64,000 bases of DNA. Origin: an uncultured Olsenella sp. (GTDB lineage Bacteria; Actinomycetota; Coriobacteriia; Coriobacteriales; Atopobiaceae). This document shows positions 31,704 to 43,739 of this stretch, in pieces (the stretch's first letter is position 1; the number at the start of each line of letters is the position of its first letter). Location: contig ONBR01000006.1 in assembly GCA_900316105.1 (NCBI GenBank), forward strand, positions 62,001 through 126,000. The letters run 5' to 3'. The translations under genes were made by a program, and so were the position numbers. The notes under the pieces are model-generated. The model did not search any database. It had not been told where the DNA came from and saw only the letters and a program-made list of their open reading frames with translations.

Positions 31704-32774
31704 ATGATCGAGTTCTACAAGACCTACCTGGATTGGCCTAGCGAGGAGACGCTGCCCACTCCCATCACGGTCAGTGAGGCAGTGGCCAGCACAAATGCTG
31801 CCACCGACGCCGCGGTCGACGACCCCGTCACGGCATCATCCCCCACTGCCACCACCAAGCGTATCGACTTCCCCACCGAGGGCTGCTGGGTCAGCGTCAC
31901 CGACCCCACCCCAAAGGAGGCCGACTGGCTTCGGGACGAGCTGGGCATCGTGCCCGAGTTCGTCAAGTCCGCCCTCGACGACGAAGAGGTCTCGCACGTC
32001 GACTTCGACGATGACACGGGTCAGGCCCTGGTAATCGTGGACTGCCCCTTCGTCGAGAGTGACGAGGATGCCGTGGACAGCTCGATTATCCAGTACGACA
32101 CCCACCCCCTCTCCATGCTCTTTCTGCCCGAGAGCGACATGGTGGTCACGGTCAGCCTGCGTGGCGACTCCACGGTGGACGCCGCCACTGGCGGAAAGCT
32201 CCGCAACCTGGACACCGATCGCCACGCCCGTATGCTCCTGGTCTTCCTCTTGCACATCTCCCAGCGCTACCTGGTGGCACTACGCTCAATCAGTCGCCAG
32301 TTCCGCGAGAACGAGCGCAAGCTCCGCCGCTCCATGAGCAATTCGGACCTCATGAAGATGCTGGGCTTCGAGAAGTCCCTGGTCTACTTCTCCACCTCCC
32401 TGCGTGCCCTGGATTCCACCCTGGTCCGCATCGGCTACGGCCGCATCGTGATGCTGCACGAAGACGACCGCGACCTCCTGGAAGACGTCCAAATCGAGGT
32501 CAAGCAGGCACTGGAGATGTGTACCATCAACACCACGGTTCTGGACGAGACCATGGAGACCTTCAGCTCGCTCATCAATAACAACCTCAACCTCACCATG
32601 AAGACCCTGGCCATCATCACGTTGGTCCTGTCCATGCCCACGATGGTCTTTAGCTTCTATGGCATGAACACGCCGCTACCCTTCGACGAGGGCTGGCTCT
32701 TTCCCCTCTTTGCGGCAGTGATCCTCTCTCTCATCTCGGCAGTCTGGATTCGCAACAGCCGCCGCATGTACTAG
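31704..32774 (+). CDS. corA: CorA-type magnesium/divalent cation channel
   Basis: A 356-residue pentameric channel protein. The N-terminus carries an unusual Ala/Thr/Asp-rich linker of about 45 residues before the cytoplasmic alpha/beta domain. The stalk helix and two C-terminal membrane helices follow; the selectivity-filter signature YGMN is present in FSFYGMNTPLPF near residue 323, and the last helix ends with basic residues RNSRRMY. Opposite orientation to the deoC operon, with a TATAAT box upstream. It is one of three magnesium-related membrane systems in the window. Confidence 0.93.
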   Translation: MIEFYKTYLDWPSEETLPTPITVSEAVASTNAATDAAVDDPVTASSPTATTKRIDFPTEGCWVSVTDPTPKEADWLRDELGIVPEFVKSALDDEEVSHVDFDDDTGQALVIVDCPFVESDEDAVDSSIIQYDTHPLSMLFLPESDMVVTVSLRGDSTVDAATGGKLRNLDTDRHARMLLVFLLHISQRYLVALRSISRQFRENERKLRRSMSNSDLMKMLGFEKSLVYFSTSLRALDSTLVRIGYGRIVMLHEDDRDLLEDVQIEVKQALEMCTINTTVLDETMETFSSLINNNLNLTMKTLAIITLVLSMPTMVFSFYGMNTPLPFDEGWLFPLFAAVILSLISAVWIRNSRRMY

Positions 32775-35725: not shown

Positions 35726-35747
35726 GGGTCACGCCACATTACTGACA

Positions 35748-35801
35748 AGGGGAGCCCCTCTTTTTTTCCAGCGTTTTGGGAAAAGAGGGGCTCCCCTATT
35801 T
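35748..35801 (+). terminator. Strong Rho-independent terminator after lemA
   Basis: AGGGGAGCCCCTC (35748-35760) pairs with GAGGGGCTCCCCT (35785-35797); a TTTTTTT/AAAA inner part extends the stem. ATTTT follows. Confidence 0.85.
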
Positions 35802-35878
35802 TCATACGTGTACAATGTGCCGTTGGAGTTCGGCCATACCTCGCGCATCCCGGCTCCGATTCCGCAAGCAATCAGAAA

Positions 35879-36007
35879 GGTCATCGATGAAACCTCGACC
35901 GCACAGTCGATGACCCCACGCGAGTCCTTGTTGGTCTTGCCGTGGGGTAGCCCAAGCAGCAGCGCGCCCAGCTATGCGAGGCGGCGCGCCTGACCAACAA
36001 AGAGGAG
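35879..36007 (+). promoter_or_regulatory. Structured 5' leader, candidate metal-responsive RNA
   Basis: Four pairings can be drawn. P1: GGTCATCGA (35879-35887) with TCGATGACC (35907-35915). P2: ACCCCACG (35913-35920) with CGTGGGGT (35941-35948), sharing bases with P1. P3: TTGTTGGTC (35928-35936), in the P2 loop, with GACCAACAA (35992-36000), giving a pseudoknot-like topology. P4: GCGCGCC (35962-35968) with GGCGCGC (35983-35989). The 3' arm of P3 ends just before the GAGGAG ribosome binding site (36002-36007), so its pairing could hide or free translation. It does not match the M-box or yybP-ykoY consensus as I know them. Confidence 0.6.
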
Positions 36008-36012
36008 CTCGC

Positions 36013-37857
36013 ATGATTTACCTGACCCAGATTCTGGGAAATCCCGTCTATGACCTCAACGGAGAGCGCATCGGCAAGGTCAACGACCTTGGCATCGCCA
36101 CTGGCGAGGTATTTCCCCGCGTCACCTCCCTGGCCGTCCAGGGACCTGGACGTACGCCCTTCATGATCAGCTGGCGCAAGTACGTCGGCTCCTTCGACGA
36201 GGACGAGGTCCATCTGAAGGTCATCGCCACCGACATTCGCTTCAGCTACCTCCAGCCCGACGAGGTGCTGATGGCCCGCGACATCCTGAACAAGCAGATT
36301 GTCGACACCCGTGGCGCACGCGTCGTCCGCGTGAACGACCTCAAGCTCTCGGACACCAACCAGAACCAGCTCCGTCTCCTGGGAGCAGAGGTTGGCGTGA
36401 GAGGCCTCCTGCGCGCCCTCTCTCCCGCACTGGAAAAGATTACTCTACACGCCGCAAGGTCCCTGGGAAAGTCCATTCCCGAGCGCATCATCGCCTGGAA
36501 CTACATGGATCTCCTGGACCGCGACCTCTCTGACGTGAAGCTCTCCGTATCCCACAAGACCCTGGACGAACTCCATCCCGCAGACATAGCCGACATCATC
36601 GAGCGCCTGGACCCCCGCCTGCGTGGCCAGGTCTTTGCCCAGCTGGACGAGGAGCAGGCGGCTGATGCCATCGCCGAGCTGGAGGACGACTCCATGGCAG
36701 CCGAGCTCATGGGCGACATGAGCGAGGACGCCGCGTCGCGGCTCCTGTCCGAGATGGACCCCGACGACGCAGCAGAGCTGGTGGGCGAGCTGGACTACGA
36801 GAAGGCCGAGAAGCTCCTACGCCTGATGGGCGTCAAGGAGCGCAGCGCCATCAACCAGCTTCTGGGCTATCCCGAGGACACCGCCGGCCGTATCATGACC
36901 TCGCAGTTCGTTCAGATTGACGAATCCGGCACCGCAAGGGACGCCGCCAACGTCATCAGGGGCCTGGACGAGGACTTCGAGACGGTGAGCTACGTCTACC
37001 TGAACGACGACGAGGGCCGTCTTTCGGGCGTAGTCAGCCTCCGTAAGCTCGTGGCTGCAGACGACACGACCCGACTGAAGGACATCGCCTACGACGACAT
37101 CGTCTATGCCCATCCGGAGGATGACCAGGAGGACGTCGCCCAGGACATCGCCAAGTACAACCTCCTGTCCATGCCCATAGTGGATGACAAGAAGAAGCTC
37201 CAGGGCATCGTGACCGTCGACGACGCCCTGGACGTCCTGGAGGAGGAGCACCAGGAAGACCTGCAGATAGCAGGTGCCGGTCACTCCGACTCGGACAACC
37301 GCTCTGGTTCCCACGACATAGCCTGGCTGGTTCGAAACGAGTTTTGGTTCATCATCTGGATGGCGGGCCTGGCGGCTCTGGTCGGCCTTGTAGGGGAGCC
37401 TCGCCGCGCCCTGGCGCTGGCTCTGGGGAGCGCCCTGCCCGTTGCCGTCGTAGCGGCCCTAGACTCCATCACCTACGTGACGAACTTCTTCATCGAGCAC
37501 GACCCGGACGACCCCGACTCCCCCTCACTCGTGGGATTCGCCTTCAAGGGCGCTGGTCTGGGCCTCCTCTTCTCCGCCTTCGTGGCCCTGGTATCAACAG
37601 GCATCTTCAGTGCCTTCTTTACAGGTTCGGACTCCCTCTACAGAGTAGGTCGACTGGGGGCGGCGGGATTTTCGGCTGCGGCGGCAAGCATCCTGATTAC
37701 CTTCCTCCTCATGCCCCTCTATCTCAAGGTTCTCAGCACCCGAGACGAAAGGGGCAAGGAGACGTCAGGGACGACCCTGCAGGTCATCGCCATGGCCATT
37801 GCGGTGGTGGTCTTCATCGTCATCGCCCTGGCCCTCGTTCGCGTTTGGGGGCTCTAG
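36013..37857 (+). CDS. PRC-barrel / MgtE_N / CBS-pair membrane protein, probable magnesium sensor
   Basis: A 614-residue protein. ATG at 36013 (MIYLTQILGNPVYD) follows GAGGAG. Residues 1-150 look like two PRC-barrel-type beta domains (VYDLNGERIGKVNDLG, VVRVNDLKLSD). Residues about 180-310 are an MgtE N-terminal helical domain (LHPADIADIIERLDPRLRGQVFAQLDEEQAADAIAELED). A CBS pair follows (GYPEDTAGRIMTSQFVQID..., ILSM-like KYNLLSMPIVDDKKKLQGIVTVDDAL). The last 170 residues hold about five membrane helices. The MgtE pore signature with GGNxG is not present, so this is not a plain MgtE channel. The next gene starts two bases after its stop, which suggests it senses magnesium for that transporter. 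Confidence 0.8.
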   Translation: MIYLTQILGNPVYDLNGERIGKVNDLGIATGEVFPRVTSLAVQGPGRTPFMISWRKYVGSFDEDEVHLKVIATDIRFSYLQPDEVLMARDILNKQIVDTRGARVVRVNDLKLSDTNQNQLRLLGAEVGVRGLLRALSPALEKITLHAARSLGKSIPERIIAWNYMDLLDRDLSDVKLSVSHKTLDELHPADIADIIERLDPRLRGQVFAQLDEEQAADAIAELEDDSMAAELMGDMSEDAASRLLSEMDPDDAAELVGELDYEKAEKLLRLMGVKERSAINQLLGYPEDTAGRIMTSQFVQIDESGTARDAANVIRGLDEDFETVSYVYLNDDEGRLSGVVSLRKLVAADDTTRLKDIAYDDIVYAHPEDDQEDVAQDIAKYNLLSMPIVDDKKKLQGIVTVDDALDVLEEEHQEDLQIAGAGHSDSDNRSGSHDIAWLVRNEFWFIIWMAGLAALVGLVGEPRRALALALGSALPVAVVAALDSITYVTNFFIEHDPDDPDSPSLVGFAFKGAGLGLLFSAFVALVSTGIFSAFFTGSDSLYRVGRLGAAGFSAAAASILITFLLMPLYLKVLSTRDERGKETSGTTLQVIAMAIAVVVFIVIALALVRVWGL

Positions 37858-37858
37858 C

Positions 37859-39124
37859 ATGACCAATACGAAAGAGCTCAAGAAGATCGCTGGAAGCAGC
37901 GCTCGCAAGGGTCGTCTTGCCCTCCTGGCGGCAATGGGTCCCGGCCTGCTCACTGCGCTGGCTGGCAACGATGCGGGCGGCATTGCCACCTACTCCTCCG
38001 CTGGTGCCTCCTATGGCTACGGGATGCTCTGGACCGTGCCCCTGATGTGCCTCCTCCTCATAGTGGTGCAGGAGACCTCTGCACGCATGGGCTGCGCCAC
38101 GGGCAAGGGCTTCGCCTCCCTGATCCGCGAGCAGTTTGGCATCCGAATCTCGGCAGTGGCAATGCTGGCCCTGGTGATATCGAACTTCGCGGTCACACTC
38201 TCGGAGTTCGCCGGTATCGCCCAGGGTATGGCCCTCTTTGGCGTGCCCACCTACGTGTCGGTACCCGTGGCGGCATTGGCCACCTGGTTGCTCACCATGA
38301 CTGGCTCCTACCGCCGCATCGAAAAGATTCTGCTCATCATCAGCTGCGTCTTCGTCACCTATGTGATTGCCGGCATCTGCGCAGGTCCCGACTGGGGGCA
38401 GGCCCTCTACACCACCATCGTGCCCCAGGGTTCGAGCGACCCCGGCTACATCTCGCTCATGGTGGCAAACGTCGGTACCACGATTTCGCCCTACATGATC
38501 TTTATGGTGTCCAGCAACGTGGTGGAAAAGAACCTCGACGCCTCCGACATCCCGGGACAGCGTGCCGACAACGTCTCTGGGGCCATCGTGGCGGAGGTCA
38601 TTACCTGGTTCATCATGATGACGACAGGGACCATCCTCTATCCCGCGGGTATCCCCGTCAATGACGCTGCCGATGCCGCCATGGCTCTGGTGCCCCTGGC
38701 AGGCCAGTATGCTTCGGGCCTCTTTGCCGCTGGCCTGGTAGGCGCATCCTTCCTGGCAGCCTGCGTCATGCCTGGCATAACCGCGGGCGCCGTCTGCGAG
38801 GCATTTGGCTGGGAGCGAGGCGCCAACAGCAGTTGGCGAGAAGCGCCCACCTACCACGGCATCATCACGGTCATCACAATCCTGAGCGCCGCCATGGTTC
38901 TCATGCCTGGTGCAGACCTCTTTGGCATCATGATGGTGTCACAGGTCATCAACGGCGTCCTCCTGCCCGTCCTGCTTCTGTGCATGGTCTTCATTGCCAG
39001 CGACAGACACGTGATGGGCAAGAACGCAAACGGCCGCATCTGGTCGACCCTCACCTGGTTCACGATCGTGGCCGTAGCCATCCTGACGGTAGTGATGTTC
39101 GTCTTCCAGACCCTAGGTTACTAA
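37859..39124 (+). CDS. NRAMP-related magnesium transporter (NRMT-like)
   Basis: A 421-residue SLC11/NRAMP-fold transporter with about eleven membrane helices. The helix 1 metal site reads GNDAGGIAT where manganese/iron transporters have DPGN; helix 6 reads TTISPYMIF where they have a methionine in AxxMPH. The retained aspartate, the Asn-to-Gly change and the lost methionine are the features reported for the magnesium-specific NRAMP clade, whose studied member is from Eggerthella lenta, another coriobacterium. ATG at 37859 overlaps the intergenic TAG-C spacer of the upstream sensor-like gene, so the two are one operon. Function as a magnesium importer is inferred. Confidence 0.85.
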   Translation: MTNTKELKKIAGSSARKGRLALLAAMGPGLLTALAGNDAGGIATYSSAGASYGYGMLWTVPLMCLLLIVVQETSARMGCATGKGFASLIREQFGIRISAVAMLALVISNFAVTLSEFAGIAQGMALFGVPTYVSVPVAALATWLLTMTGSYRRIEKILLIISCVFVTYVIAGICAGPDWGQALYTTIVPQGSSDPGYISLMVANVGTTISPYMIFMVSSNVVEKNLDASDIPGQRADNVSGAIVAEVITWFIMMTTGTILYPAGIPVNDAADAAMALVPLAGQYASGLFAAGLVGASFLAACVMPGITAGAVCEAFGWERGANSSWREAPTYHGIITVITILSAAMVLMPGADLFGIMMVSQVINGVLLPVLLLCMVFIASDRHVMGKNANGRIWSTLTWFTIVAVAILTVVMFVFQTLGY

Positions 39125-39337: not shown

Positions 39338-40072
39338 TTACTTGCTTGCCTTCTTGTACTCGTCCAGGAAGGAGTTGAACATGCCCTTCGTCTTGCCGAG
39401 CTGCTTGCCTAGGGCCTTCGATCCCTTGTCCACGGCCACGGAGGCCTTGGCGTCGAACTTCTTTGATGCTGCCGCACCCTTGACCTTTGCCTTTGCGTAG
39501 CCCTCGCCGGCCTTTGCCGCAACACCACCCGTGAGTTGCAGGTCCTTTGCGGCATCATCCACGACCATATAGCCCTTGGAGTAGCCCTTTACCATGCTGG
39601 CGGGGATGGGCAGGGCACCAACCAGGGACTCCGCCATGCCGCCGTCGCCCACGTAGAAGGCCTCCACCTTGCCAGTATTTTCGTCAAAGGATACATCGCT
39701 CACGAAACCCAGGTCCTTGCCGCTCCTTGTGCGAGCGTCCATGCCAGCCCACATGACGCAGCGGTCCCAGTCCAGATTCAGGCGCTTGCGTGCTGCGTCG
39801 TCGGTACCGTTCTTCTCGTCCGTGATCAGCAGATGGTCGTCTTCACGCGCAATGGAGTCATAGGCCACAAAGATGTCCTTGCGCTTGACCATGCCAGCAA
39901 CGTCGGGTCTCTTTACCAGGTAGCCCACGAGCCTGCTTCCCTTGGGCGAGAAGACCGCCATGTGGATGCGGCCAAGCTTCTTGAACTCCTCCTCCTTGCC
40001 CTGCTTGGTCTTCTTGACCTTGTGCACGCCTACCTTCTTGCGTGTAAGCTCGCTCAGCCTGACCGTGGCCAT
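39338..40072 (-). CDS. PRC-barrel domain protein
   Basis: A 244-residue soluble protein. ATG at 40072 (MATVRLSELTRKKVGVHKV) follows GGGAGG by five bases. Two PRC-barrel-like halves can be seen: LGRIHMAVFSPKGSRLVGYLVKRPD near residues 38-62 and DLGFVSDVSFDENTGKVEAFYVGDGG near 122-147. The C-terminal 70 residues are Ala/Lys-rich (AKAGEGYAKAKVKGAAASKKF). PRC barrels bind RNA or protein, as in RimM. It is convergent with the magnesium operon, which also contains PRC-type domains. Function unknown. Confidence 0.7.
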   Translation of the reverse strand: MATVRLSELTRKKVGVHKVKKTKQGKEEEFKKLGRIHMAVFSPKGSRLVGYLVKRPDVAGMVKRKDIFVAYDSIAREDDHLLITDEKNGTDDAARKRLNLDWDRCVMWAGMDARTRSGKDLGFVSDVSFDENTGKVEAFYVGDGGMAESLVGALPIPASMVKGYSKGYMVVDDAAKDLQLTGGVAAKAGEGYAKAKVKGAAASKKFDAKASVAVDKGSKALGKQLGKTKGMFNSFLDEYKKASK

Positions 40073-40131
40073 CCGTACCTCCCGAAATCGACCCACCCAA
40101 AAGCCCTACGGATGGGCTTTCCCAACAAGAA

Positions 40132-40226: not shown

Positions 40227-40688
40227 CTAGGCCTCCTTGGGAGCCTCTGCCGCCGCGTCCTCGTCGCCACCGGCAACCTCGACATGCACGGGCTCAACGG
40301 GCTCAACGGGTTCGCCCTCCTCGGTGGGGGTGACCTTGTCTGCCACGGTGTTCACGGCATCCTGGACCTGTGCCGAGGTGGCGCCGACCACGTCGGACAG
40401 GGAGTTACGCAGCTGGTCCATGCGCTCGCGAGCAAGGTCGACCTTTGCACGGAGCTCGTCGCTCGTGGCATCAACGCCGGGACGGACGTTGTTGATCTTC
40501 TCCATAACGACGCGAGAACCGCGCTCGTAGGAGTCCACTGCGCTATCCCATGCGTCATTGACCACGTCGGCCGTCATGGCGCGACTCTCGGCACCAGACC
40601 TCGGGGCGAGCATGACTCCGGCAACGACGCCTGCGGCCGCACCGATGATGCCGCCAACGATAAATCCCAAAGTACCCTTTGCGCTCAT
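40227..40688 (-). CDS. YtxH-domain protein
   Basis: A 153-residue protein beginning MSAKGTLGFIVGGIIGAAAGVVAGVMLAPRSG, the glycine-rich membrane helix and APRSG motif that define the YtxH family. The rest is helical and charged (ELRAKVDLARERMDQLRNSLSDV) and ends with a VEPVEPVHVEV acidic tail. Such proteins are often general-stress proteins in Gram-positives. Monocistronic; function unknown beyond family. Confidence 0.85.
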   Translation of the reverse strand: MSAKGTLGFIVGGIIGAAAGVVAGVMLAPRSGAESRAMTADVVNDAWDSAVDSYERGSRVVMEKINNVRPGVDATSDELRAKVDLARERMDQLRNSLSDVVGATSAQVQDAVNTVADKVTPTEEGEPVEPVEPVHVEVAGGDEDAAAEAPKEA

Positions 40689-40804: not shown

Positions 40805-42247
40805 CTAACGCACCCTGCGAGGTCCAGGGATGTATTCCTCGTGGACGGGGGCAGACTCGCTCTTTTGCGGCTCATCCTCGGGCAGGCCGTCCTCGTAGTG
40901 GCGAACCTTTGAAGCCTCGTCCTCGACGGGCTCCTCGCCATCCTCCCCCTGAGCACGAGCCTCTGCGAGGGCATCCTGGTTGTCCTTGTACTGATCGGTG
41001 AGGTCCTGAATCTGCTGGGCGTTGCGCTCGTTCTCCTCGGCTTCCTTCTGCTCGGGGTCAACCTTCGCATCAGGCCCCAGGTACTCCACGCGCTCGTCGG
41101 GCTTCACAGGCTCCACGACAGGCTCGGACGCAAAGGCATCATCGGGATTCTCGGAGTACTCCTTGTCCAGGAGCTCAGACTCGGAGAGCTCCTCGGCAGG
41201 CTCGTCCTTGGCAACTGCCTTGCCCTTGGACTCAAAGACCGACTCCTCTGCGGCCTCCTCAATGTCCTCGGACTCCCTGGACGCCGCCTTCTCCTCGGCC
41301 TCCTTCTCCTCGGCTGCTGCCACCTCTGCCGCCTCAGTTCCGTCAATGTACGACACAGTTGTCTCCTCCATCGACTGATCGTCCTCAAGGGACGGTGCCA
41401 CCTCTGCTGCCGCAGGCTCTGCGGTAGCAGTCACTTCCTCAGTCTGTACGGCAGCGGCCTCTGCCTGGGCGCGGCGACGCTCCTCGTCCTGGCGGCTGAT
41501 CTCGTCCAGATCGACCGCCCAGGAGGGCATGGCCGCCCGGCGGGCCGCCTCGGCCTCCTCCTCGCGGCGACGAATCTCCTCCTCGGCGGCCTTTCGGTCG
41601 GCCTCCTCGAGGGCCATCGCCTCTGCCTGCACCTTCGCGCGAGCCTCGGCAATCTGCTCCTCGCGCTCGGCAATCTGCTCCTCACGCTCCTGGAGCTTGC
41701 GCTGGTACTCCGCGGTAACCTCGGCACGCAGCTCATCCTCAACCTGCTGGCGATAGGTCACCTCGTGAATCTCGCCGATGTTCTGCACCATGCTGGTCAG
41801 TCCGGCAACGATGGCCTCCACATCGGGCACGGGATCTCCGCCGCCACCAAAGGCCCAGTTGGCAATCCAGACGGCACTGGAGAGGGCACCCATGACTAGG
41901 ACGTCATCGGGGCAGGAGAGCTCGATGTCAAAGCTGCGGTCGTCTTCCTCCACGGGGAAGGTACGGCCAGAGATAATCTCTGCAGACTCGCTGGACTGCG
42001 AGAGGAGCTCGACCGTCATATGCTCCAGGAGGTGAGCGATCTCGGTGTCACCCATGACACCCTTGAAGGTCTCCTCCCTGTCGCCCATGCACACATGCTC
42101 GGTGATGTGGGGCATCAGGTAGTAGATGCGCGAGGTGGCCACCAGGTCCTCGCTAGTCATGAGAGGAGCGCCCTCGACGATGCGCACGCGCGCCGTCAGG
42201 TTTTCCAGGCCTACCCGGACCCTCTTGATTGAAATCATCTGTGCCAT
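40805..42247 (-). CDS. Cyanophycin-synthetase-N-like domain fused to coiled coil and acidic tail
   Basis: A 480-residue protein, start ATG at 42247. Residues 1-160 (ISIKRVRVGLENLTARVRIVEGAP; DTEIAHLLEHMTVELLSQ; ISGRTFPVEEDDRSFDIEL) resemble the N-terminal domain of cyanophycin synthetases, which carry an HxxEHxxxEL motif. The ATP-grasp and Mur-ligase domains are absent. Residues about 165-260 are a long coiled coil (EYQRKLQEREEQIAEREEQIAEARAK). The rest is acidic and disordered with a late RVEYLGPDAKVD segment, ending EYIPGPRRVR. I know of no function; the cyanophycin link is an inference from motif spacing. Confidence 0.6.
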   Translation of the reverse strand: MAQMISIKRVRVGLENLTARVRIVEGAPLMTSEDLVATSRIYYLMPHITEHVCMGDREETFKGVMGDTEIAHLLEHMTVELLSQSSESAEIISGRTFPVEEDDRSFDIELSCPDDVLVMGALSSAVWIANWAFGGGGDPVPDVEAIVAGLTSMVQNIGEIHEVTYRQQVEDELRAEVTAEYQRKLQEREEQIAEREEQIAEARAKVQAEAMALEEADRKAAEEEIRRREEEAEAARRAAMPSWAVDLDEISRQDEERRRAQAEAAAVQTEEVTATAEPAAAEVAPSLEDDQSMEETTVSYIDGTEAAEVAAAEEKEAEEKAASRESEDIEEAAEESVFESKGKAVAKDEPAEELSESELLDKEYSENPDDAFASEPVVEPVKPDERVEYLGPDAKVDPEQKEAEENERNAQQIQDLTDQYKDNQDALAEARAQGEDGEEPVEDEASKVRHYEDGLPEDEPQKSESAPVHEEYIPGPRRVR

Positions 42248-42365: not shown

Positions 42366-43739
42366 CTACTTGTCCACTTGTTCTTCCTGGCCTTCCCGAG
42401 ACTCTCGTCCCTCCCTGTCAGGATCCTCGGCAGGAGGTTCGTCCGCGTCCTCCTGAGGCTCTGGCGCCGTGACGCGCACCAGGGAAACGCGACGACGCCT
42501 GAGGGACTGGACGTGGAAGGTATACCCCTCCAGCTGGAACTCGTCCCCAGGCCTGGGCAATCCGTCGAACTCGTCCAGGATGAAGCCGGCAATGGTCTCG
42601 TACTCCTCTGAATCCTCGATGGGCCAGCCGAGCTCGATGGCGTCGTCGATAGAGTAGCGGCCGTCCACCAGCCACTCGCGCTCCGAGAGCTGGGTCAGGT
42701 ATTTGTTGTCGGGATCGAACTCGTCCTCGATCTCGCCCACGACCTCCTCGACGATGTCCTCTATCGTAATGATGCCCGCGGTGCCGCCGTACTCGTCCAC
42801 GACGATGACCATGTGGTCGTGGGCACCACGCATCTCGGACAGGAGGGGGATGATGTCCTTCGTGTCAGGGACGAAGTCCGCGTGGCGCATGTAGCGCTTG
42901 ATGGGATCGGCAGCGGCGTGGTTGTCCATAGCGGGGCCGATCAGGTCCTTGATGTGGGCAATGCCCACGATGCGGTCGATGTCCTCGTGGTAGATGGGGA
43001 TACGGGAGTAGCCCTTGTCCTGCATGATGTCGATGACCGTGCCCACGGTAGTGTCGTCTTCCACGAAGGTCACGTCCACGCGAGGGACCATGACCTCGCG
43101 GGCATTGGTGTCACCCAGGTCGATGACCTCGTGAATCATGGACTTCTCCTCGGCGGAGAGCTCGTCGGAGTCACGCACCATGTAGCGGATCTCGTCCTCC
43201 GACACATCCTGACGGTCCTCGGTGCCCTTGATGTGTAGGAGAAGGGCCAGGCCGTTGGAGCTTGCCGCAGTCAACCAAACCAGGGGATGGACAACCTTTG
43301 AGAAGCCCCTGAGCGGACCCGTGACCTTCTTTGCCACGCCCTCGGCATCCGCCATGGCGATGCGCTTGGGCACAAGCTCGCCCACCACGATGGAGAAGTA
43401 GGAGACGATGAGGGTGATGATCACCGTGGCGAGCGTGTTGGCCAGGCCCTGGTCCAGGCCAAATCCAGACAGCCAGGCACCCATGGGCTCGGACAGGCTG
43501 GTGGCTGCAAATGCCGAACTAAAGAAGCCCAGGAGGGTAATGCCCACCTGAATGGTGGCCAGGAAGCGGCTGGGGTTCTCCACGGCATCGGAAGCAGCCG
43601 CAGCGCGCTTGTCGCCCTCCTCTGCCTCATGGTCCAGAAGGACCTTGTGTGCCGTAGAAAGTGCCATCTCCGACATGGAGAAATACCCGTTGAAGATGGT
43701 CAGAATTACCGTAACCGCAATCGATATGGCTATGTTCAT
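42366..43739 (-). CDS. CNNM/CorC-type transporter with CBS pair (hemolysin family)
   Basis: A 457-residue membrane protein. The N-terminal DUF21/CNNM domain (residues 1-190) has four helices, opening [30 protein letters not shown] and including [21 protein letters not shown] pair follows ([71 protein letters not shown]). The C-terminal CorC_HlyC domain ([16 protein letters not shown]...) ends in an acidic tail. Relatives export magnesium or sodium, so this may complement the importers upstream. Earlier 'hemolysin' naming is historical. Confidence 0.93.

Follow-up and report, generated by a model that had tools for sequence, protein, structure and literature searches.

A conserved eight-codon reading frame in the leader of a sensor–transporter operon of Atopobiaceae and its possible part in magnesium control

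How does a bacterium control magnesium import when the operon concerned shows none of the known magnesium riboswitches in its leader? The question is raised by a locus of an uncultured Olsenella sp. (Actinomycetota; Coriobacteriia; Coriobacteriales; Atopobiaceae), in a stretch of 64,000 nucleotides (nt) of contig ONBR01000006.1 (assembly GCA_900316105.1, positions 62,001 to 126,000 of the forward strand), called here the window and used for all coordinates. Two adjacent genes code for a protein related to the cytosolic Mg2+ sensor of MgtE (gene A) and for an NRAMP-related magnesium transporter, or NRMT (gene B). In front of gene A, the leader contains a short upstream open reading frame (uORF), followed by a hairpin with a loop that is predicted to pair with the Shine–Dalgarno (SD) region of gene A. 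The A–B pair and the idea of a feedback through A are already known; the uORF leader is new and, within the literature searched, undescribed.

The uORF and the pairing that follows it

The leader comprises the following elements.

35874–35880 (+): SD sequence of the uORF (AGAAAGG); an AGAARGG-like sequence is present at this place in nearly all Atopobiaceae loci
35887–35913 (+): uORF of eight codons and a stop, MKPRPHSR (ATG AAA CCT CGA CCG CAC AGT CGA TGA), recognised by conservation
35914–35947 (+): hairpin P2, CCCCACG/CGTGGGG (arms 35914–35920 and 35941–35947), beginning directly after the uORF stop
35921–35936 (+): anti-SD segment in the P2 loop, CGAGTCCTTGTTGGTC, which is predicted to pair with the SD region of gene A and covaries with it
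35992–36012 (+): SD region of gene A, GACCAACAAAGAGGAGCTCGC, partner of the anti-SD segment by covariation and predicted fold

In loci chosen by anchoring on gene A, independently of the leader, a uORF with its own SD sequence occurs upstream of A in 43 of 47 loci of the family. A pattern scan of the class finds the uORF in 86 of 398 genomes, all of them Atopobiaceae (none with a reversed-pattern control). The exact peptide MKPRPHSR has 71 matches in the 84,980 species genomes of GTDB, 70 of them in Atopobiaceae; in 69 of the 71, gene A starts 50–140 nt downstream, and one more is cut by the end of its contig. The sole match outside the family, in a betaproteobacterial metagenome-assembled genome, is not close to any A and is regarded as a chance match. 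A loose pattern made of the uORF core and a hairpin was swamped by chance matches and could not be used.

The variation within the frame is of the coding type: starts are ATG, GTG or TTG, stops are TGA, TAA or TAG, third positions change synonymously, and an in-frame N-terminal extension occurs. Of 88 distinct leaders, collected with a pattern that demands MKPRP, 72 encode MKPRPHSR; the differences lie at positions 6–8, in synonymous third bases and in which stop codon is used. Loci outside that pattern contain MKDRPHSR, MKSRPHSR or MKPRPCRR. Rare codons are kept in the frame, with CGA at codon 4 in 88/88 and AGT at codon 7 in 82/88 (in the window, AAA makes up 5.7% of Lys codons, CGA 6.7% of Arg, AGT 5% of Ser and CCT 13% of Pro).

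Outside Atopobiaceae, uORF peptides are found in a second and a third family of the order (f2 and f3, probably Eggerthellaceae and Coriobacteriaceae) and in another order (f12) of Coriobacteriia. In f3, the peptides at the equivalent place are MKSKPRPHSR and MKPKPRPHSS; in f2, they are mostly MKVRKPKPHS[MNSKW], with one variable residue at the end; and in f12, they are MRPFSQ or MRPFSR. The core common to all four groups is [KR]P[HF]S, one residue and the stop. Such conservation suggests that the uORF is a genuine and translated frame.

Across genera, most positions of hairpin P2 show four to six types of base pair. The score of the hairpin is 21.9 against 13.1 for shuffled sequences, and exceeds the shuffle mean in 105 of 115 cases. 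For the anti-SD/SD pairing, tested with one leader per genus, the own pairs have a mean of −19.5 kcal/mol against −14.9 ± 0.47 kcal/mol when partners are swapped between genera, and the lowest of 1000 permutations (−16.3 kcal/mol) stays above the own-pair mean. The first paired base of the anti-SD segment is situated at a median of 9–9.5 nt after the uORF stop in three families, roughly as far as a ribosome extends when the stop codon occupies its A site. The SD of gene A is paired with the P2 loop in the minimum-energy fold predicted for the window leader. Covariation and predicted fold both point to a structure that hides the SD of gene A. An initial annotation, made from the letters of the window, had proposed control by a structured leader; the conserved uORF, the hairpin and the anti-SD covariation support it, although the uORF (35887–35913) and its anti-SD hairpin had been missed there.

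The MgtE-like protein and its transporter

The operon codes for the following parts.

36013–37857 (+): gene A, 614 residues, PRC-MgtE_N-CBS-CBS sensor with a membrane domain that appears to be a degenerate, pore-less version of that of MgtE
37312–37851 (+): five-helix membrane part of A (residues 434–613), modelled alone with AlphaFold2
37859–39124 (+): gene B, 421 residues, NRMT, from a structure match and motifs

Protein A starts with a PRC domain (residues 1–69), followed by MgtE_N (187–289), two CBS domains and five membrane helices. The MgtE_N and paired CBS domains of the cytosolic sensor, already recognised in the initial annotation, are confirmed by Pfam (E 2.2e-26 and 3.7e-17), and the MgtE structure 2yvx is matched with E 1.7e-40. 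Pfam gives a single PRC domain in place of the several PRC-barrel domains claimed earlier. Sensor positions were picked with the list of Mg2+ ligands of the T. thermophilus MgtE structures. Seven residues of A (D251, D371, E373, D404, E412, E415 and D416) are invariant in 34 homologues and align with D91, D214, E216, D247, E255, E258 and D259 of T. thermophilus MgtE; E255 of A is present in 33. The position of D95 in the T. thermophilus protein is occupied by Glu in 33/34 homologues, that of E59 is variable, and that of D226 is Asn throughout. On this alignment, most acidic residues of the Mg2+ sensor are retained in A.

The model of the membrane part alone has a mean predicted local distance difference test score of 91.7 and a predicted template modelling score of 0.85. 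By structural alignment (VIA-align), the best match is the MgtE membrane domain (Z 11.3–12.5, about 172/194 residues, root-mean-square deviation 4.4–4.7 Å), and five of the six top folds are MgtE (4u9l, 4u9n, 5x9h, 2zy9 and 2yvx). Foldseek alone is weak here (MgtE at E 0.2 with the membrane part alone); the assignment of the fold leans on VIA-align together with a profile chain via the A protein of f12, which has 612 residues. In profile–profile comparisons, the membrane part of the window matches that of f12 with E 2e-6, and f12 matches eight genuine MgtEs with E 9e-8; the direct comparison of the window with these eight gives only E 0.0018. The MgtE membrane model PF01769 has no match in A of the window or of locus L158, but does match the relative in locus L168 (E 1e-16). 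A is without the GG[NT] pore motif of transmembrane helix 2 (TM2), with AAL in the profile alignment where the reference MgtEs show MGG or MGS, and its TM5 has no acidic residue at the place of an aspartate that is invariant in the eight reference MgtEs.

The membrane part of A is, by these comparisons and the model, a degenerate MgtE membrane domain, with the fold kept and the pore motifs lost. The initial annotation was right about some five helices without a GGNxG-type motif; the different membrane domain that it saw there is instead a degenerate form of the MgtE fold, according to the structural alignment and the profile chain. Since the pore motifs are gone and the sensor acids retained, A is best read, from its sequence, as a pore-less MgtE, that is, a sensor without a channel.

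Gene B is placed directly downstream of A, as annotated, with a gap of one base after the A stop and not two. Its closest solved structure is EleNRMT (7qia, E 1.5e-142), a match that bears out the NRMT-like transporter suggested earlier, and EleNRMT transports Mg2+ (PMC8806188). B is an NRMT, and would be expected to transport Mg2+ as well. In the binding site, both D38 and G41 of the helix 1 motif DxxG are found in 29/29 B sequences. In the helix 6 motif TxxA/T, T207 is also present in 29/29, and the final position is Ser in 18 (including the window, where EleNRMT has Ala), Ala in 11 and never Met.

A homologue of A is present in 121 of 140 genomes of Atopobiaceae, and B adjoins A downstream in each of the 48 loci read in the family. 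B is also found beside A in loci read from other families and classes, with the exception of three loci (L169–L171) and of ATPase fusions. The membrane part is less constant. In f3, the five-helix part is present; in f2, A has about 455 residues, with only one helix, at the C-terminus, besides the sensor part. The A proteins of other classes of the phylum are often soluble or have a recognisable MgtE membrane domain, with B adjoining in L168 and L182–L187. In the three exceptional loci, the A-like proteins have about 602 residues and there is no NRMT within 1.5 kilobases (kb); L169, the only one tested, gives a weak PRC match and a weak match to the MgtE membrane domain.

The initial annotation had made its case depend on the pair being conserved in relatives, as it is in the 48 family loci. 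The magnesium unit that it proposed (a leader, an MgtE-derived sensor and an NRAMP-type importer) is well supported, with the pair kept across families and classes. That the set was undescribed does not hold: the pair was published by Shin et al. 2014 (PMC4072509), who found a gene for the MgtE cytoplasmic domain beside most nrmT genes, upstream and often under an M-box, and proposed feedback regulation.

No natural A–B fusion was found among the loci examined. A frame of 900 residues owes its length to unrelated sequence fused in front of A, while A and B remain two genes, and frames of 1318 residues in two loci (L166 and L167) are fused to a P-type ATPase and not to B. In two genomes of another class, fusion proteins of about 1317 residues (L172 and L173) combine the PRC-MgtE_N-CBS module with a P-type cation-transporting ATPase. 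These fusions support a view of PRC-MgtE_N-CBS as a module that may be portable between importers as their regulator.

What the leader may respond to

At the gathering threshold, no Rfam family matches the window leader; at a relaxed threshold, the only matches are chance ones of the microRNA type, in the terminator-like repeat further upstream. Five loci outside the class (L168 and L182–L185) carry the M-box (ykoK, RF00380; 132–147 bits) in front of the same operon. No M-box was found in the window or in 12 searched loci of Coriobacteriia. Since the M-box holds the equivalent place in these relatives, the uORF leader occupies the position of a Mg2+ riboswitch. A translational switch based on the uORF may thus have replaced the M-box, and, judging from this position, Mg2+ would be its signal.

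We consider it on balance probable that the locus is a Mg2+-import operon with two layers of control, the uORF leader switch and the sensor protein A acting on B. We infer the direction of the switch, the lingering of the ribosome and the action of A on B as follows. In the first layer, the P2 loop would by default pair with the SD of gene A, and the translation of A–B would be low. If a ribosome lingered on the final codons of MKPRPHSR or on its stop, as would be expected under scarce Mg2+, it would cover about 9 nt, which correspond to the 5′ arm of P2, and would abut the anti-SD segment. The hairpin would then be broken, the SD freed and A–B translated. In the second layer, A would sense cytosolic Mg2+ via MgtE_N-CBS and restrain or permit import by B. 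A further step, more tentative and in our view possible without being probable, is that the ribosome terminating on [KR]P[HF]S, one residue and the stop is itself the Mg2+ sensor, by nascent-peptide or codon arrest, and has replaced the Mg2+ riboswitch of the orthologous operon throughout the class.

In the mgtQ-mgtB leader of Salmonella, translation of mgtQ releases a hidden ribosome-binding site of mgtB (Choi et al. 2021, PMC8092293). Common to both leaders are an open reading frame of eight residues before a Mg2+ transporter operon and a structure, predicted here, that hides the downstream ribosome-binding site. The differences are an unrelated peptide, basic here against one dependent on Asp2 and Glu5, an unrelated RNA, another phylum, a class-wide conservation here, and a first gene that is a sensor and not a transporter. 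Type II proline-rich antimicrobial peptides such as apidaecin and drosocin act on terminating ribosomes, where they trap the release factors (PMC11347161). The likeness is that of a short peptide with PRP and PH ending at a stop, and concerns the C-terminal part of apidaecin only; the uORF has 8 residues against 18, the critical R17-L18 are without a conserved counterpart, and the last residue varies in f2. Because that residue is not conserved across families, an arrest of this kind by MKPRPHSR is a lead only.

Several observations weigh against the two-layer operon. The peptide MKPRPHSR is without the Asp/Glu residues required by Salmonella mgtQ, and none is conserved across the leaders (one variant is MKDRPHSR). 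Three Atopobiaceae A–B operons (L035, L037 and L043) are without the uORF leader. The folding energy of the whole leader is unexceptional against shuffles (z −1.4). An alternative stem over the uORF start, P1, has weak support and is absent in f3, and was rejected as a general element. The anti-SD test restricted to f3 is weak because the f3 sequences are similar. Finally, in a single co-expression test, the MgtE-like gene of A. capsulatum did not improve the rescue obtained with its transporter (PMC4072509).

The leader RNA might instead bind Mg2+ directly, as a new riboswitch in which the metal stabilises the hairpin and anti-SD pairing and the uORF adds ribosome occupancy only. The M-box, which relatives have in this position, is an RNA sensor, the hairpin and the pseudoknot-like pairing covary, and much of the uORF is also kept at the nucleotide level (including the rare codons CGA, AGT and AAA). 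However, the distance from P2 to the SD ranges from almost zero to >100 nt, with no shared aptamer-like core in between, and what is conserved is a reading frame, from its start and stop to its synonymous variation, so that we hold a direct riboswitch to be unlikely. We are a little more doubtful still of a uORF that senses translation capacity and not Mg2+, where a run of rare codons (AAA, CCT, CGA, CCT, AGT, CGA) would slow the ribosome when the matching tRNAs are short and thereby open the SD of gene A. The constancy of CGA and AGT, rare as these codons are in the window, would fit; yet the peptide features recur in other families amid different residues, and a Mg2+ riboswitch holds the same place in relatives. 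To the same degree, we doubt a constitutive translation coupler, with the SD kept open, a fixed expression and nothing sensed. The end of the uORF, near the structure hiding the next SD, is a layout also suited to coupling, but the strong conservation of the peptide and the place of the M-box point to regulation rather than to constitutive coupling. A reading in which A works as a Mg2+ channel on its own and B merely happens to lie beside it is very improbable, since A, in spite of the MgtE fold of its membrane part, has neither a PF01769 match nor the TM5 aspartate nor the GG motif, and is reduced to a single end helix in f2 and often soluble outside the class, with B adjoining all the same. 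The two-layer operon is the reading that we prefer.

Surroundings of the operon and meaning

Two further elements precede the leader.

35747–35798 (+): inverted repeat resembling an intrinsic terminator, after the lemA gene, AGGGGAGCCCCTC...GAGGGGCTCCCCT
35808–35816 (+): conserved GTGTACAAT, probable −10 region of the promoter, from conservation of TACAAT

The terminator-like repeat, outside the element proper, would separate the A–B operon from upstream transcription. In most Atopobiaceae loci, TACAAT precedes the start of the uORF by 40–103 nt. Beside A–B, a convergent block on the (−) strand (42366–43739, 39338–40096, 40227–40688 and 40805–42247) codes for a PRC-domain protein with two PRC stretches, a YtxH-like protein, a cyanophycin-synthetase-N-like protein and a CNNM/CorC-type transporter; its gene order is kept in 9/9 Atopobiaceae neighbourhoods examined. 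A CorA-type transporter (31704–32774, +) is located about 4 kb upstream of A–B, outside the conserved block. Three Mg2+-related transporter families thus occur within 12 kb.

As in the operons of Shin et al. (PMC4072509), a gene with the MgtE cytoplasmic domains stands directly upstream of an NRMT gene, and feedback was proposed there; theirs are cytoplasmic-domain fragments, often under an M-box, whereas a degenerate membrane domain and a uORF leader are present here. With the MgtE channel, A has in common the sensor domains and the membrane fold, and it differs by the lost pore motifs, the N-terminal PRC domain and the NRMT neighbour.

If the proposed reading is true, orthologous operons in one phylum would have swapped an RNA aptamer for a micro-ORF read by the ribosome, with the same target, and would constitute a natural experiment on the replacement of regulatory mechanisms. 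As the peptide has only eight codons and belongs to one operon, small reporters could be used to study arrest, the response to Mg2+ and the switching of the RNA. A pore-less MgtE would mean that the MgtE sensor is detachable from its pore and usable with unrelated importers (an NRMT or, by fusion, a P-type ATPase), and would bear on the role of the MgtE-like partner, the question left by Shin et al. 2014 (PMC4072509).

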